NCBI RefSeq assembly: GCF_028858725.1
Contig: NC_084772.1
Location: forward strand, 22,669,548-22,733,547
Reading direction: 5' to 3'
Length of the DNA: 64,000 nt
DNA from: Colius striatus
Lineage: Eukaryota > Chordata > Aves > Coliiformes > Coliidae
A model generated the notes under the pieces. It made no database searches. It saw only the letters and a program-made list of their open reading frames with translations, and was not told where the DNA came from. The position numbers and the translations under genes were made by a program. Numbering within the stretch: the stretch's first letter is position 1; each line of letters opens with the position of its first letter. This document shows positions 2,738 to 64,000 of the stretch, piece by piece.

Positions 2738-3090
2738 GTGGCTGCGGTGTGGCTCTGGTGCGTGGCTGTGGCTGCGGTGTGGCTCTGGTGCGTGGCTGTG
2801 GCTGCGGTGTGGCTCTGGTGCGTGGCTGTGGCTGCAGCATGGCTCTGGTGCGTGGCTGTGGCTGCGGTGTGGCTCTGGTGCGTGGCTGTGGCTGCGGTGT
2901 GGCTCTGGTGCGTGGCTGTGGCTGCGGTGTGGCTCTGGTGCGTGGCTGTGGCTGCGGTGTGGCTCTGGTGCGTGGCTGTGGCTGCGGTGTGGCTCTGGTG
3001 CGTGGCTGTGGCTGCAGCATGGCTCTGGTGCGTGGCTGTGGCTGCGGTGTGGCTCTGGTGCGTGGCTGTGGCTGCAGCGTGGCTCAGGCG
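2738..3090. repeat. 30-bp minisatellite, about 12 copies
   Basis: Unit CGTGGCTGTGGCTGCGGTGT followed by GGCTCTGGTG, with one partial copy (2738-2760) and eleven full copies to 3090. Most copies are identical. Units starting at 2821 and 3001 carry GCAGCAT in place of GCGGTGT, and the last (3061) is more divergent. Because 30 is a multiple of three it is open in several frames on both strands, but nothing supports translation. Confidence 0.97.
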
Positions 3091-6000
3091 TGTGGCTCCC
3101 AGCCTGCCTGCACCAGGCAGGGTCAGTGAGGGAGCAGTGTGGTGGGTGAGCCCAGGGGTCAGGCAGCTCAGCGTCACCCTTCCTCAGCTCTGGGAGGTTC
3201 CCAAAAGGGCTTTTGGGCAACAAAGTGTAATTTGCCTTTTTGAGAATCTGCATTTCAATTGTACAAACACTACCTGTTTCTGGTTTCGAAACAAGGCTTT
3301 TGGTGTTAGTTACCATTGAAGCTGATGAATCTCTCACTTTCAATCAGTTTCGAAATAGTGTGAGTCTTTGTATGGTTTATTTAGTAGATGAGGTCTTTGC
3401 TCTGACAGTGCTGTCACACTGAATGTCTCCAGTACACAGCAGTGAATTCATAAACTGTGCTTTTACCTGCAACTTGAGGATTCCAGGTGTGGGAATATAC
3501 AAGGACCCTCTGCATTAGGTATAAGGAAGACGAAACTGGCCTGACTTCTGTCGTGACAAGTGAGAGGCAGTAGCACATCTGGACTCCAAAGAGTGTTTTG
3601 GTTATGACTGCTCAGCTTTGGTGGCTCTCTCCTGCACTGAGGGGTGGCTGTCCCCATGCTGCTCGCCAGTGCAGTTAGCAGAGGAGTAGCTGAGTCTGAC
3701 CTGAAGCCTGTGTAGGATCAGGGCCACTGGGAGTGACCGGTGTGTCTGCCGAGGGCAGTGGGAGCCATGGTGCTGTGAGGGAGCAGTGGGGTTGCAGCAG
3801 CAAGGGCCAAGGGCAGCTCCACAGAATGTCCTGCAGCTCAGTGTCAGGAGTCAGGGCCAGTTTTGACCTCCAGGCAAAGCACCCTGCTTTGCTTGTAACA
3901 AAGCTCCAGCAAGCTGGGAAGAACTTGTTTGGGTGTTTGGTGTAGCGTCAGCAGATCCTGTGACAGGAGTGGAGCCGATTCCCTGGACAGTGCCTGTGAG
4001 GAGCAGCCCTGCCAGGACTGAGGCCTGGGGCCGTGGGCTGGGGGGGCACCACTGGCCATGGAGCCATTCACAGGCAGCAGAGGGAACTCGGTCTCCATCT
4101 AGGGAGAACCCATAGTGCTGGAGCTCACCCCTCCATGCTATGGTCTGCACAGGGTGCTGGTCTCGGTGCCTCCTCCCTGGCGCTGCTTCTAACCCACATG
4201 GTAGGGACAGAAGCAACAGCAGAGCTCTTTTCTCCTCAGAGCACAGTGCACTGTTCATGTTCCCCTGCTATCTCCCCTTCTCTCTCCAAGGTACAGGGCT
4301 TCCTGAGAGCCCTGCCATGCCATCCTCCTCTGTCCTGATGTCCTCCCAGAGGGCTGCCTGCTGAAGGACTCCTTCCCTTCCAATGGGCAGTGCTTTCTAT
4401 CTGTGTTGCACCTTTTGGTGTTTTTATAAAACCACCAAAACTTATGAGTGTTCTCTTGTGGTTTTGATGCTGCATTGAGGACTGGTGAATGTCCTGAGCT
4501 CTATATTTAGGGATGAAACAGCTTGTTTGGAATGGGAGAATGAAGGCTCGTCCAGCACATGCTCTGAAACTTCTTCATCTGCCAGACAAGATTTTCTGGT
4601 CTTTGTAGATCAAGTAACAAGGGACAGTGGCATGGGGAATCCCTCACACAGTGTTGCTCATTTATTGTCTGTGTTTCTGCTGAGGTGGTGTGTTTTGCCA
4701 GCTGAACAGAGTGCACCTGACAGACTTCTGTTGCTTTCTTCCACTGTTCTCCTGTGCTTGGCCTCCATGATTCCCCACCTGAGCTATTGGAAGAATTCCC
4801 TGCAGCAACATCCTTGAGACTTCCCAGGGGGCTTTGTCTGCAGTTCTTGCTTTCTGTACCTCAGTGGAGGTAAGACATCAGAAACACTAATCCAGCAGAC
4901 TTGTGAGCTGAGGCTTCTCTGCAGGTGGGGGCTTGCCTAACAGAGCATAGCTTAGCCATGTGCCTACTAACATCGCCAGTCATAATTTCCACCAAGATTT
5001 TCCCCCTTCCCACGAAGTGTCCTTGGTTTAAAGAATCATGTCACCTCTGCCACCTTCCTTTCCCCAAGTAGCAATGCTGGTTTAAGCAATGTGATACAGT
5101 AATAGGTAATCATCAGGACCTCCAGTTCCCTCCCCACCTCTCTTGGGTAAGGCATGTAACATCAGACAGTGCTACCCAGGGTTGGATGCATGCGCCTGAC
5201 TTTCCACTCCTACCAGCGTCAGGCTCCGTGACAGTGTGAGTTGTCGATGCCAACCAGTAACACACTTTCTTTGGGTTTCTTTGTTCCACTCTTCAGTTTT
5301 GCAGAGTAAGGGCAAGGTGCAGGCAGGGGTCTGAGCATAGCTTGCTGAACAGGTCCATGAATGCACTAGTCTATGAGCAACAGGTATTGGCCATCAGCCT
5401 TGGCACACCAGATGGATGTGCCTGACATGAAGAACAGCTTGTCTGCATGGGGTTTCTTGCCTGATGGTTGTAGATAACAACAGTTCTAAGCAAAGTGTGT
5501 AAAATCTTTAAATCTTTAACAAATCTCTCATTAATCCCAGCTAAGTAGATTAAAGCTGACTGCAGGCTTTAAAAGGAAGCAAGCTGATCACTTGTAGGAC
5601 AGAGAAAACATATACAATGAAAAACAGACAGATAGGCTGTAATGTGCAGTTTCTTGTTTCCTGGTCTAGATAGCAGTCAGACCACCAGACCTCGGTTCAG
5701 TGGACCCAAAGATTCAATGAGATGAGACTGTGCAGTGTGATTCTGTATTGCATGAGTCAGACATGTCAAAGATGCTCCAGGCAGATCCTGTCTCTGTGCT
5801 ACAGACTCGGGAACCAAAGCGGCTCTGTATGAATGTTTTTCTTCAGAAAAAACAAGACAGAATGCTGAAGTCCCAGATGAAAATCAGGATCCTTCTCAAG
5901 GTTCAGCCTGATGTTAAGGTCTTGAACATCAGAAGGGCCTCTGGTACTCTCCCTACGGTAGTTACTGGGACTGATCTGTATTTGTAGACATAACTCTGAT

Positions 6001-42496: not shown

Positions 42497-51413
<8,917 letters not shown>

Positions 51414-51544
51414 GGCCCGCTGCCGCGCCGGGAAGGGAGAGGAGGGAGAGTGTCGGCGGGGGGAGGGCGCGAGGCGCTCCCCGGCCCGGCTCCGCTCCGC
51501 TCGGCCTCAGCGGCCGCGCCCCAGCCGCCCCAGCACCGCCATGT

Positions 51545-51635
51545 CCGCGCCGGCCGCCGCCATAGAGACTAGCGCCGCGAGCCCCCGACTTCCGGTGCCG
51601 CGTCACGTGACTGTGGCAGCACTTCCGGCCGGGCA
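51545..51635 (-). promoter_or_regulatory. DHX38 TATA-less promoter with ETS, E-box and YY1 sites
   Basis: This GC-rich stretch lies just upstream of the DHX38 start codon. It holds ETS-type ACTTCCGG at 51588-51595 and 51621-51628, a palindromic E-box GTCACGTGAC at 51602-51611 and a YY1-like GCCGCCAT at 51556-51563. There is no TATA box. This mix is typical of housekeeping and often bidirectional promoters. In mammals the other arm drives TXNL4B, but no plus-strand partner is visible here. Activity is inferred. Confidence 0.6.
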
Positions 51636-51679
51636 GGGAAAGACTTGGGGGGGGGGGAGACGGAACAGGGCGGAGCTGC

Positions 51680-51875
51680 GGGACCCGCGCGGAGAGAGAC
51701 CCGCACGGAGAGAGACCCCCGCGGAGAGAGAGAGACCCCCACGGAGAGAGAGAGACCCCCGCGGAGAGAGAGAGACCCCCACGGAGACCCGCGCGGAGAG
51801 AGACCCGCACAGAGACCCCCGCGGAGAGAGACCCGCGCGGAGAGAGACCCCCGCGGAGACCCTTACAGAGACCCC
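51680..51875. repeat. Purine-rich tandem repeat, GAGAGACCCCCGCGGA type
   Basis: Short, uneven units of (GAGA)n followed by CCC(G/A)C(G/A)CGGA are repeated a dozen or more times just outside the DHX38 promoter. The strand bias (long GA runs) and embedded CpGs stand out. The repeat creates open frames in several phases, which explains long spurious reading frames here. Confidence 0.8.
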
Positions 51876-51954
51876 CGGGGCGGGCAGGGGACACCCGAGC
51901 TGCATCAGCCGTTGCAGATGAGCACCGCCCCCCCCTTCCCTGGGACAGCCGCGT

Positions 51955-51985
51955 ACACAGACACACACTCGCACAGCCCCGCGCA

Positions 51986-52027
<42 letters not shown>

Positions 52028-52125
52028 TACACACACAGACACACACTCGCACAGCCCCGCGCACTCACACACACACACACACACAGATACACACACAGAC
52101 ACACACTCGCACAGCCCCGCACACT

Positions 52126-52161
<36 letters not shown>

Positions 52162-52553
52162 TACACACACAGACACACACTCGCACAGCCCCGCGCACTC
52201 ACACACACACACACACACAGATACACACACAGACACACACTCGCACAGCCCCGCGCACTCACACACACACACACACACAGATACACACACAGACACACAC
52301 TCGCACAGCCCCGCGCACTCACACACACACACACACACAGATACACACACAGACACACACTCGCACAGCCCCGCGCACTCACACACACACACACACACAG
52401 ATACACACACAGACACACACTCGCACAGCCCCGCACACTCTCACACACACACACAGATACACACACAGACACACACTCGCACAGCCCCGCGCACTCACAC
52501 ACACACACACACACAGATACACACACAGACACACACTCGCACAGCCCCGCGCA

Positions 52554-52592
<39 letters not shown>

Positions 52593-53234
52593 ACACACAG
52601 ACACACACTCGCACAGCCCCGCACACTCTCACACACACACACAGATACACACACAGACACACACTCGCACAGCCCCGCGCACTCTCACACACACACACAG
52701 ATACACACACAGACACACACTCGCACAGCCCCGCGCACTCTCACACACACACAGACACACAGATACACACACAGACACACACTCGCACAGCCCCGCGCAC
52801 TCTCACACACACACAGACACACAGATACACACACAGACACACACTCGCACAGCCCCGCGCACTCACACACACACACAGACACACAGATACACACACAGAC
52901 ACACACTCGCACAGCCCCGCACACTCTCACACACACACACACACACAGATACACACACAGACACACACTCGCACAGCCCCGCGCACTCTCACACACACAC
53001 AGACACACACAGATACACACACAGACACACACTCGCACAGCCCCGCGCACTCACACACACACACAGACACACAGATACACACACAGACACACACTCGCAC
53101 AGCCCCGCACACTCTCACACACACACACACACAGATACACACACAGACACACACTCGCACAGCCCCGCGCACTCACACACACACAGACACACAGATACAC
53201 ACAGAGATACACACAGACACAGATACACACACAT
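51955..53234. repeat. 20-copy satellite-like array of a ~60-bp (CA)-rich unit
   Basis: A tandem array in which each unit has a (CA)n run of variable length, a fixed core reading CAGATACACACACAGACACA, then ACTCGCACAGCCCCGC(G/A)CACT. I count 20 occurrences of the CTCGCACAGCCCC core, near 51969, 52047, 52107, 52181, 52241, 52301, 52361, 52421, 52477, 52537, 52608, 52665, 52721, 52785, 52845, 52907, 52971, 53032, 53094 and 53154. Spacing is 56-78 bp, with a run of exactly 60. The array fills the whole space between the DHX38 promoter side and the 3' end of HP. Length changes come mostly from the (CA)n part. Confidence 0.95.
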
Positions 53235-53269
53235 CGTGTGTCAGGGCCCGCAGGCAGGTGTGCGGCGGT

Positions 53270-53275
53270 TTTATT
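53270..53275 (-). terminator. HP polyadenylation signal AATAAA
   Basis: AATAAA on the minus strand begins 12 bp beyond the HP stop codon, so the 3' UTR is very short. The tandem array starts about 35 bp further on. Confidence 0.8.
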
Positions 53276-53286
53276 CCCCGGCCTCC

Positions 53287-54996
53287 TCAGCCAGCCGCCA
53301 TGGTGGCCGTGAGCCAGGCCAGCACGCGCGGCACGGACACGTACACGCCGAACTTGGCGGCCGCACACGTCTTGTCGTAGCTGAGGATCCCGGCCGCGTA
53401 CCAGGCGCCGTCGTCGGGGTCCTGCACGACGAAGGCGCCGCCGGCGTCCCCGTAGCACGTGTCCTCGCGCAGCTCGCTCATGCCCACGCAGAAGGTGTGG
53501 TTGCTGAGGAGGGGCTGCACCCAGACGGAGCCGTTCCGGGCCCCGTAGTACTGCCGGCAGCGCTCGTCCTCTGCCACGGGCAGCTGCACGTACCTCAGCA
53601 TGTCGGCGAAGGCGAAGGAGGCGCCACGGCCCCAGCCCGACACGTATCCCACCCGCCCCGGCTGCGCGTAGTCCTTCTGTGGCAGGCAGACGGGCATCAC
53701 CTCCTCCCCGAGGGGCACCTTCTCCTTCAGCTTCAGCAGCGCCAGGTCCACGTCGTGAGGGTAGCCGGGGTGCAGTACCACACGCTCGATGGCCGCAGCC
53801 AGCTGCCCACGGCCGCCCAGGAACAGCCGCAGCGTCGCGGCGAGCTCCTCGGGGCTGGTGCCCTCGCTGTGGTTCAGGTAGACGTTCCTGCCCGTGGTCA
53901 ACAGCCACTGGTCACTGATGAGCGTGGCTCCCACGGTGAGGTTGTGGCGGGTCACCAGCCGGCCCTGCCACGGGAAGCTGCCCTTCCTCGCCAGCAGGCC
54001 CCCAATGATGCGCTGCATCTGCTGAGGGGGGTTCTTCGGCCTCCCACACACTGCAAAGGGGAGGGAGAACAGGGTGAGCCCCTGAGGCTGGCAGGGGCCG
54101 GGTGTCTCCTGGCCCACAGCAGCCTGGAGCAGTGCTGACGATGGGGCTGTAAGAAGCCTCTGCGGCCCTTTGGCTGCCCAGACTGATGGCTCCCAGCACC
54201 CCCCCCGCCGAGCCCCTGCTGCTCTGCTCTCACCTGGCTCACACACAGGCACCTCTGCCACACCTTCAGGACTCACCCACTTTGTGTCACACTTGTACGT
54301 GCCTTTGAAGGGAAACCAGAGTCAGCCAGGGGAAAGAAGGACTCCACAGCCAGGCAAGCACAGGGGCACTGCTACCTCCACAGGGCTTGGGCGAGCAGGG
54401 GAGGCTGCTTGTGCCCCTGAGGGAGGCAGGGCAGGGGGCTGCATCCTCTGGCATCAGGACAGCCCTGTGCCCGGTGCTGTGCCATGCAGCAGGCCTCACC
54501 ATTCCCAGAGCCACGCAGCTGGTAGTGTGGGTTGCAGTGGTACTTGATAAGGTGCTCCACGTAGCCATGTTCAATCTCTGCAGGCTTTGCACAGCTCCAC
54601 TCTGCAGGCACAGGACGTTTAGTTGGAACACAAGATCCAGCCCGGGACGGTTTCCCCACCTCCAGCAGGTCCCTCCCAAGTCCACTCTTCCCTGCCCCAC
54701 GCCTGCTCCCTGCCAAGCTGCCCCTGGTTTCACCCAAACCTCCAGCACTCCCACCTCCACTCTGCAAAGTACCAGTGGCAGTTGCAGTCTCCAGCATCAT
54801 CCAGGCCAGACCAGCAACCAGCAGCACAGCAGCTCTGCAGGGAACAGAGGGCACACTCAGGCAGAAGCTCCCAGCCTGTGGCTTCAGGACTGACAGGCTC
54901 AGCTCCTGCCTGTGCCCCTGGGGCTGCCCATCAGCCACGGCCCTGTAGCAGACAAGGCTGCAGTGTTGGGGCCCTCAGCAGCCCCACTCACCCCAT
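53287..54996 (-). CDS. HP: Haptoglobin, single-CCP type, complete
   Basis: Secreted plasma glycoprotein that captures free haemoglobin for CD163-mediated uptake. Coding exons: 54992-54996, 54755-54834, 54500-54601, 54234-54302, 53287-54050; all phase-1 joins fit, giving 1,020 bp and 339 aa (human HP1 is 347). Exon 1 supplies only ATGGG. Order: signal peptide (about 1-20), one CCP/sushi domain (from Cys32, with motif HGYVEH), processing site MQR|IIGG at Arg99, then a chymotrypsin-like domain. The protease triad is dead as in haptoglobins: His replaced by Arg140, Asp187 kept, Ser replaced by Ala288 (GDAGG). The CD163-contact loop [13 protein letters not shown] (about 203-215) is almost the human sequence. 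Four N-glycosylation sequons lie at N122, N145, N258 and N269; the first two match human sites. It lies between DHX38 and DHODH, on the same strand as both, as in human. The second exon end was chosen for the better donor and human-like length. Confidence 0.96.
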
Positions 54997-57841: not shown

Positions 57842-60800
57842 TCAGCACCGGTGATCTGCTCCAATCGCCTCCATAATGTTGTTGAACCCTTGCTCCCTGA
57901 CCAGGGACAGGGTGCTGTGGCTGGGCTGGGCTGGCATTGCCCCACGGTGCTGCTGCTCCTGCACCAGCACGTGGCTTGGCCCAGGGGCTCCCTGGGGAAG
58001 GTTCCTGGCCCTTCACTCACCTCAGCAGCTCCTCCAGCTCTCGCTTCACTGCTCCCACCACCATCGGCCCGTGATACACGAGTGCTGTGTACATCTGCAC
58101 AAGTGAGGCTCCAGCACGGATCTTCTCCAGGGCATCACGCCCACTGCTCACACCACCTACCCCGATGATGGGCACCTGGCCTGTGGGCAGGCACCGACTC
58201 AGGATGGCACGGGTGATGCCAGCATGTGCCCCACGCCTTGCGCTGCCCCTACCTCGAGTGAGGGAATACATCTCCCTGATGGTCTGTGTGGAGAGCTCCC
58301 GCAGGGGCTTCCCGCTGAGACCCCCGAGCTCTGTGCGCTGCGGGCTCCGGAGGCTGCTGGGGCGGCTCTCAGTTGTGTTACTGACAATCAATCCATCCAC
58401 ACCCAGCTGAGGAGGGCAGCAGCCTGAGGACATAGCCAGCACCAGCAGCCCCCACTCTCATCCCCAGGCTGCCAGGCCAAGACTCGCACCCAGCGATGTG
58501 CCCAGGGACAAAGCAGCTGCCACTCGCTGCCTGGGCTGGTCCCAAGGTCTCTGTGACACAGACCCTCATAGACTCAAGAGCTACCCAGGACACCACCCCT
58601 ATGGCAGCCAGAGAGCTGCAGGTCTGCCTGTCCCTTCAGAGGTGACATGCCAGGAACACCACCATCCTGCCCTCACGCTGTGCGAGCTGAGGCGGGAGGC
58701 AGCCAGCCCAGCTCCTCCCAGCCTCCCCTTCCCTCCTCACCTCACAGACAACAATAGCAATGTCCTGCTTGTCCCGCGTGCTGAGATCAGGGGAAATCTT
58801 CACCAGCACAGCTGGCTTGCGCTCACAGGGGAGCGCATCCCTCTCCGCCAGCACCTGTGAGACGCACCGGGCACAGAGTGGTGTGTGCTGGGGACACCCC
58901 CACGCCCCGGCACAGGCAGACGCGGCACCCGCGGCCACAGGCAGCGCTGGCACTGGCCCTGCCCTCCCTACATGGGATGCTGATGGGATGAGCCCCTATG
59001 GCACAGGGCCTGGGACCCACACAGCAACTCCAGATGCAGCAGTGCAGGTGCGTTGCTGCAGTGGAGTGCAGTGCCCCACTGAACCCTGTGCCAGCAGCTC
59101 TCAGGGGGCATTTCAGTGGCTCTGCCCACTGCTCTGTGGAGCCACTGCACTGTTCCCTGTACTGGGGCAAATCCTGAGCCGATACTGCCAGCAGGTGGGA
59201 TGCATCCAGGGCTGGCTGTGAGGGTCACCCACCTTGGTCAGCAGGTCCTGCAGCTTAGCCTTGCCCTGCAGGTCCCGCAGCCCTGGGGTGTTCGGGCTGG
59301 ACACATTCACAACCAGGTAGTCAGCCAAAGGGCCAAGCACCCGGACCCCAGCCACGTAGTCATCTGCAGCATCAGCAGAGCTCTTGTTCTTGCCCAGGTT
59401 GACTCCAAGGGGCATCCCCGCTAGAACACAGACATGGCTGAACCGGGGCAGCAGGACCAACCGTAACCCAAGGGGCCAAAGTGCCCAACAAGGGAGGCCC
59501 CAGGACGAGATAAGATCAAAATAGGCATATGCAGCACAGATGTTTCATGGGGTGGTCTTGTCCCACAGCCACAGGGCCATCATAACCCCTGCCCTGGTCA
59601 GTGCCTCCCAGCACTGCAGCCTCTGGCCTGGACAACCAGCGAGGCTGCCTTCACAAACTGCCTGCCTGGGGCCCTATTTGCTTTGTCTGCTCTCAGCAGA
59701 TACAGCCCTGCCCAAAGCCGCAGGCAGAGCCTCTACTGCAGAGAAAATGGCAGAAGAAAGGTGCTTGGTCCCAGTCCCCAGACAGTGGCTACAGCCCCAA
59801 GAGGGTTCCTGCAGTCTGAATGCCTGGACACTGGTGTTACACATCTTTCTTGGCCTACAGCTGCCCGAGACGCTCAAACCCACCCTGTAGACCCCAACAA
59901 GAAAAGCTCACAAGCTTCTCACCACCAGTGAGCCTGAGCTGTGTCTCCTGGCGGGCCCGCAGCCTACGCTCCACTGCCACGTGGCCATGGCTATTGAATC
60001 CATACCTGCACCAGAGCACACAAGGTTCAGAGCTGAGCTGGTATCCACACCCCCTGTGCAGGACACAGGGGAAACACAGGGAAGGCATCTGGCCTCTGCA
60101 GCTTTGCTGAGCACATCCAAACCAAGAGCCCCCACAGCGCAGACCACACAGCTGAGACCACCCACACAACCACCCTCCGTGCGGGTGGGCAGCGCACAGC
60201 AGCCGCCCCCAGAGCCCACCTGTTAATGACCGCCTCATCCTCCGCCAGCCTGAACACCCTGGGCCTGGGATTCCCCTCCTGGGGCTGGGGTGTGACAGTC
60301 CCCACTTCCACAAAGCCAAAGCCCATCTTGTACAGCCCATCCACAGCCTCGCCCTGCTTGTCGAAGCCTGCCGCCAGGCCCACGGGGTTGCGGAAGCGCT
60401 GCCCGAGGACTCGCACCTCCTGCGGGGCGGAGCCCGGGTCACACGCAGCCAGTCGGCACGGCCGGAGCCCACCGACACCGGGAGCCACAGCCAGGCCCTC
60501 GCTCCGGTCCCCTCCCGCCGGGGCCACGCCCGGGACCCGGCAGCGCCGCTGGGCACCCCGCGGGCCGAGCTCACCCCCCGCCCCCCCACGTAACGAGAGA
60601 GGGCACCTGGGGCCCCGGCCCCTGCCCGCCATCGCCCTCCGGTCCCCGAACGCCCCGCGGTCCCGCCCCCCCGCACAGAGCCGCACCAGCTCGGGGCCGT
60701 CGGGACGGGCGGACGGCAGCAGCCCGAGGGCGGCGGCGCGCAGAGCCAGCCCGTGCGCGGTCTCGGCGGGCAGGGCGCGGAGCGCGGGCAGAACGGCCGC

Positions 60801-63343: not shown

Positions 63344-64000
63344 GAATCATAGAATGGCAGGGTTAGAAGGGACCTTTAGAGCTCATCTAGTCAAACCCCC
63401 CTGCTGCAGAAGCAGGTTCACCTAGATCAGGTTGCATAGGAACATGTCCAGTCAGGTCTTGAAGACCTCCAAGGAAGGAGCCTCCACAACCCCTCTGGGC
63501 AGCCTGTGCCACTGCTGTCACCCTGACAGTGAAATAGTTTTGTCTTATATTTAAGTGGAACTTTTTGTGTTCCAGCTTCATCCCATCATCCCTTGTCCTG
63601 CTACTATCTAATATAGAAAAGAGGGATGTCCCAACCTCCTGACACCCACCCTTTAGATATTTATAAATGTTAATAAGATCTCCCCTCAGTCTCCTCTTCT
63701 CCAGACTAAACAGTCCCAGTTCCCGCAGCCTTTCCTCGTATGAAAGATGTTCCAGTCCCCTGATCATCTTGGTGGCCCTGCGCTGGACTCTCTCCAGAAG
63801 TTCCCTGTCCCTCTTGAACTGAGGAGCCCAGAACTGGACACAGGACTCCAGATGAGGCCTCACCAGGGCAGAGTAGAGGGGGAGCAGAACCTCCCTTGAC
63901 CTGCTGGCCACACTCTTCTTGATTCATCCCAGGATGCCATTGGCCTTCCTGGCCACGAGGGAACATTGCTGGCTCATGGTCAGTTTATTATCAATCAGGA
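63344..64000 (-). mobile_element. CR1 LINE, minus-oriented, cut by window edge
   Basis: Its 3' end at 63,344 reads ATTCTATGATTC on the minus strand. ORF2 C-terminal coding is well kept: [40 protein letters not shown] and [20 protein letters not shown] are in one open frame of about 175 codons (63387-63911). A stop interrupts the frame just upstream (the codon after GILG). It is 5'-incomplete only because the window ends. This is the youngest-looking CR1 here. Confidence 0.96.

Follow-up and report, generated by a model that had tools for sequence, protein, structure and literature searches.

Is haptoglobin missing from birds in general, or only from some of their lineages? Chicken is described in PMC8081666 as lacking haptoglobin, with PIT54 serving as its hemoglobin-binding chaperone. 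We addressed this question in a 64-kb stretch of the genome of the speckled mousebird, Colius striatus (the whole of which is called the window), where the initial annotation had placed an intact haptoglobin gene (HP) with five coding exons at 53287 to 54996. This species belongs to the order Coliiformes, within Neoaves. Our analysis indicates with high confidence that the window holds an intact haptoglobin ortholog, orthologous to mammalian HP. It had already been annotated publicly as haptoglobin-like and is not new.

Gene structure and family membership

HP is read on the minus strand, from the ATG at 54996 to the end of the TGA at 53287. Its five coding exons, all with gt...ag borders, form a coding sequence of 1020 nt that translates into 339 residues with zero frameshifts and zero internal stops, which upholds the proposed gene structure. 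The features of the gene are the following:

54992..54996, minus strand: HP exon 1, coding part (ATGGG, only five coding bases; donor gtgagt)
54755..54834, minus strand: HP exon 2, leader (alternative donor, ACTG followed by GTACTT, 18 nt before the exon end, giving isoform X2)
54500..54601, minus strand: HP exon 3, first part of the CCP domain (C32 and C51)
54234..54302, minus strand: HP exon 4, second part of the CCP domain (C67 and C83)
53287..54050, minus strand: HP exon 5, with C87, the Arg99 processing site, the protease-like domain (Arg140, Asp187, Ala288), and the stop
Residues 255-264, within exon 5: HP short loop, with the sequon N258-G-S
53270..53275, minus strand: AATAAA, 11 nt past the HP stop

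Use of the alternative exon 2 donor gives a 333-residue isoform that is letter-for-letter identical to the NCBI protein 'haptoglobin-like isoform X2 [Colius striatus]' (P0001). Both readings come from the same gene, the 339-residue one using the later donor, and this identity confirmed that the gene is from a bird, as had been deduced earlier.

In the predicted protein (Colius HP), a serine-protease-like domain lies C-terminal to a CCP domain. Arg99 precedes IIGG, Arg140 occupies the His57 position, Asp187 is present, and Ala288 occupies the Ser195 position, so that the catalytic His and Ser are replaced in the manner of haptoglobins (Lys or Arg; Ala). The residues of the Arg processing site and of the inter-chain Cys pair (Arg99, C87, and C207) are also present, and both the processing site and the dead triad named in the initial annotation were thus recovered. 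Human and pig haptoglobins (PDB 8xmp, 9fhb, and 4f4o), which are 50-55% identical to Colius HP in structural alignments, share with it the CCP and inactive protease-like domains, the processing Arg, the dead triad, and the inter-chain Cys pair, whereas their His57 site holds Lys instead of Arg.

The top PDB matches of Colius HP were haptoglobins (9e-128), followed by C1r (1e-50), C1s, and MASP2. This ranking, together with an alike domain order, is what could suggest another CCP-protease of the C1r, C1s, or MASP type, an identity that deserves practically no credence given the 254 bits by which the best haptoglobin outscored C1r, the dead triad, the DHODH neighbour described below, and a tree in which the haptoglobins, Colius HP among them, stand apart from C1r/C1s/MASP2 with a support of 100/99 (bootstrap not fully settled). 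The haptoglobin grouping therefore held in the phylogenetic check against other serine-protease families that had been proposed at the outset, and such families were rejected on the PDB ranking and the tree.

Exon 1 has five coding bases only and a 1.2-kb minisatellite lies near the HP 3′ end, both of which would suit a pseudogene or a silent relic left open by chance. We nevertheless consider this very improbable, as splice sites, stop, AATAAA, and ten cysteines are all in place, the protease-like domain of the other mousebird, Urocolius, is identical to that of Colius HP at 227/240 residues, and NCBI holds a protein model with isoform X2. A pseudogene in Colius was rejected on the complete splice sites and open frame.

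Several observations nonetheless weigh against the assignment. Pfam analysis of isoform X2 returned a Trypsin match of 140 bits and a Sushi match of 20.4, slightly under the cut-off of 20.7. The claimed signal peptide and CCP domain therefore stand as far as the hydrophobic leader (a low-confidence helix in the structure model) and the CCP exons are concerned, whereas the domain score falls just short. The model has a pLDDT <50 in parts of the leader, chain junction, and residues 221-225, and the Arg252 position is uninformative alone, pig haptoglobin also having Gln there. In the tree, crocodile sits on a long branch with ostrich and emu, while other reptiles fall with mammals (81/97), and the branching order within haptoglobin is unsure, with bootstrap unsettled. 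We set aside two groupings whose branches are long or weakly supported: that of crocodile with ratites, and that of mammals with lizards, tuatara, and turtles.

The CD163-contact loop and the CCP cysteines

An acidic cluster of CD163 is the partner of Lys262 in the human haptoglobin loop EGSTVPEKKTPKSPVG, as described in PMC12273918. The initial annotation considered this loop as kept in the mousebird, which proved incorrect: the Colius loop is only 10 residues long, eight fewer than the mammalian loop as found in human and pig haptoglobin, with no VPEKKT counterpart, and the protruding loop with Lys262 that characterizes mammalian CD163 clearance is thus missing. In an alignment of Colius HP with 120 proteins, loop length was 18 in 49/49 named mammals and 61/61 mammal-like rows, and 6-10 in 42/42 bird rows (one of which is P0001), 8/8 named reptile rows, and 9/9 unnamed rows. 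Rows here and below are 90% clusters under one name, some of them unnamed, and the named haptoglobin rows come from one set of the best 120 of 223 and another of all 94. The long loop is most simply read as a mammalian insertion, as judged from mammal, bird, and reptile rows. If the short loop is ancestral, this suggests an origin in the mammal line for both the CD163 loop and the free dimerising cysteine, in keeping with the title of a 2018 paper by Redmond.

A sequon occurs at the short loop in 34/37 Neoaves rows (P0001 and two Leptosomus rows included), the exceptions being P0034, P0036, and P0040. Human and pig haptoglobin, unlike Colius HP, have no sequon at residue 258. None was found at the loop in the five goose, screamer, ostrich, and emu rows (P0035 being truncated there) or in the eight reptile rows, and 6/61 mammal-like rows have one inside their longer loop.

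Since the Lys262 loop is absent, a complex of Colius HP with hemoglobin should not dock on CD163 in the mammalian way, and clearance by the mammalian receptor should not be taken for granted. The missing loop in birds fits with the statement, in a 2025 nomenclature paper (PMC12032555), that chicken has genes called CD163 and CD163L which are not orthologous to their human namesakes.

The third CCP cysteine (C67) is kept in Colius HP, whereas human and pig haptoglobin lack it, as do all 61 mammal-like rows. It was seen in 31/42 bird rows of the raw alignment, in which some models read intron in place of exon 4; among the rows holding exon 4, it is present in 27/28 birds (P0035 via a mis-spliced stretch) and 6/7 reptiles, the remaining rows (14 bird, one reptile) being uninformative on this point. 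In the standard CCP pattern, four cysteines pair inside the domain (C32-C67 and C51-C83), and mammals join two alpha chains through an unpaired alpha-chain cysteine. This alpha-alpha cysteine is present in 44/49 named mammals, and in Colius HP, with pairing deduced from the CCP pattern, its counterpart should be occupied. Because intradomain pairing can use up all four CCP cysteines of Colius HP, none would be left for an alpha-alpha bond, which points to a covalent monomer, and covalent dimers of bird haptoglobin appear unlikely from these cysteines. The exception among birds is Anna's hummingbird (P0020), which has no third CCP cysteine; a hermit copy (P0247) carries a low-quality flag, and haptoglobin may be loosening in hummingbirds as well.

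Distribution across birds and predicted function

Named haptoglobin rows include ostrich, emu, goose, screamer, pigeon, owls, cuckoos, parrots, suboscines, and many Neoaves, and span about 20 bird orders. No galliform-named row was found among the best 120 of 223 or among all 94. The lack of a named galliform row amid so many bird orders supports a loss of haptoglobin that would be lineage-restricted, one of the two options raised by the initial annotation, the other being that this lineage may carry both scavengers. A hidden galliform copy is conceivable through cluster naming, unnamed rows, or genes absent from assemblies. Wicher and Fries, in a 2010 review, reportedly described haptoglobin in ratites. 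No title reporting a survey of haptoglobin genes across birds was present among the papers listed in our literature searches.

Twelve aligned bird haptoglobins were 66-82% identical to Colius HP. Of 42 bird rows, 38 retain the processing Arg, with two gaps and two substitutions, and all 42 have Ala at the Ser195 site. In two corvoid copies, those of blue jay (P0038) and Australian magpie (P0054), Gly or Cys replaces the processing Arg and some residues are missing, which, as read from the proteins, hints at a second, separate decay of haptoglobin in oscine songbirds. Both the processing Arg and the Ala are kept in the modelled parts of the suboscines Corapipo and Sakesphorus and of the treecreeper Climacteris.

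Some other rows deserve mention. The unnamed relative P0241 and the Prinia fragment P0253 look worse than the jay and magpie copies. P0248 of Amazona collaria is a protein containing a garbled haptoglobin-like stretch, possibly a broken second copy, and other parrot rows such as P0026 look intact. The mammal-like haptoglobins P0078 and P0095, filed under Klebsiella and Salmonella, probably stem from host DNA contaminating bacterial assemblies.

Given what is established for haptoglobins, Colius HP would be secreted, probably by the liver, and cleaved after Arg99 into two disulfide-joined chains, and its protease-like domain would capture hemoglobin in plasma. The protein would be a covalent monomer, and its hemoglobin complex would be cleared through another receptor or another contact than mammalian CD163 docking. 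Secretion, cleavage, binding, the monomeric state, and clearance are each less sure than the identity of the ortholog. We tentatively propose, as a possibility still short of probable, that haptoglobin is the ancestral scavenger of birds and is kept by most orders, whereas Galliformes and much of the oscines have lost or broken it independently, and that it acts as a covalent monomer with non-CD163 clearance, bearing in Neoaves a glycan where mammals have the loop.

Several points temper this predicted function of Colius HP. Both its expression and its binding of hemoglobin are predictions from the gene. Likewise, the ancestral state of the short loop is deduced from mammal, bird, and reptile rows. 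Finally, as CD163 also contacts hemoglobin itself according to PMC12273918, binding to an SRCR receptor would still be possible without the loop.

The Colius protein could also be orthologous to haptoglobin but have ceased to scavenge hemoglobin, PIT54 doing so in birds. This unlikely alternative competes with the inferred function only and not with the identity of the gene. It would account for the absence of the mammalian CD163 loop and free dimerising cysteine, and the decayed-looking gene of two corvoid songbirds, along with fragments from others, implies that haptoglobin is dispensable in some birds. However, the loop is absent from reptiles as well (8/8), and they mostly keep the third CCP cysteine (6/7 with exon 4), so that these traits look ancestral rather than decayed, and the retention of the processing Arg and of Ala at the Ser195 site in the bird rows also counts against this alternative. 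Wicher and Fries reportedly found in 2006 that fish haptoglobin binds hemoglobin, which further weighs against a loss of scavenging.

PIT54 itself (PDB 9h0m chain E) matches CD163 SRCR domains and not a protease-like domain, which makes it an analogue of haptoglobin and not a relative. With human CD163 domains 1-4 as the query, no PIT54-named protein was found among the best 120 of 5062 SRCR proteins, where many bird rows are named DMBT1. One megapode 'DMBT1' row scores higher with CD163 (941 bits) than with PIT54 (636), these being whole-chain scores that are not discriminating.

If haptoglobin is indeed the ancestral scavenger of birds, 'PIT54' would be the wrong name for the plasma activity in most bird orders. 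Wild-bird studies apply a heme-binding assay for 'haptoglobin' and label the activity as PIT54, or as a functional equivalent which in chickens was identified with PIT54 (PMC7329054 and PMC5468148); if most bird orders have a true haptoglobin gene, this label rests on a lineage without haptoglobin. The crossbill (PMC7329054) is however an oscine, in which haptoglobin may be broken and the PIT54 label may be right.

The HP locus and its surroundings

The features surrounding HP in the window are as follows:

42500..51510, minus strand: DHX38 (PRP16 helicase), next gene downstream of HP (matches at 42500-48491)
52006..53214, no strand: minisatellite with a 60-bp unit in 19.7 copies, built on AC repeats, between the HP 3′ end and DHX38
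58023..58457, minus strand: DHODH exons, C-terminal part, gene upstream of HP

The gene order is DHODH, HP, and DHX38, all on the minus strand, and HP is thus adjoined by the two genes that are its neighbours in human. The 5′ end of DHX38, with its likely first exon, was placed at ~51.5 kb from an open reading frame (ORF) that we take to belong to this gene. In the goose haptoglobin model P0015, DHODH residues are fused ahead of HP and are one letter off the mousebird DHODH stretch, which shows the same DHODH-HP order in goose. TXNL4B, which sits between HP and DHX38 in human, gave zero tblastn matches within the 64-kb window at E<=1, and DHX38 matched at 56-96% in the same run; the letters of the human TXNL4B query, though not those of the DHX38 query, were confirmed against PDB. 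The placement between DHX38 and DHODH, which had been described as in human, is therefore correct for the two flanks, whereas TXNL4B, present at the human locus, has no match in the Colius window. The gap between HP and DHX38 (51600-53240) is mostly minisatellite.

Pfam analysis of one DHX38 ORF yielded weak AAA matches below the cut-off, and eight other ORFs of the window (seven lying outside DHX38, the eighth inside it on the opposite strand) had zero Pfam matches. Rfam at gathering thresholds likewise gave zero matches in the window. The ORF at 63390-63923 on the minus strand, with zero Pfam matches, reads like the closing stretch of a CR1 reverse transcriptase. A tandem repeat with a 30-bp unit in 12 copies (94% matches) lies at 2738-3097.
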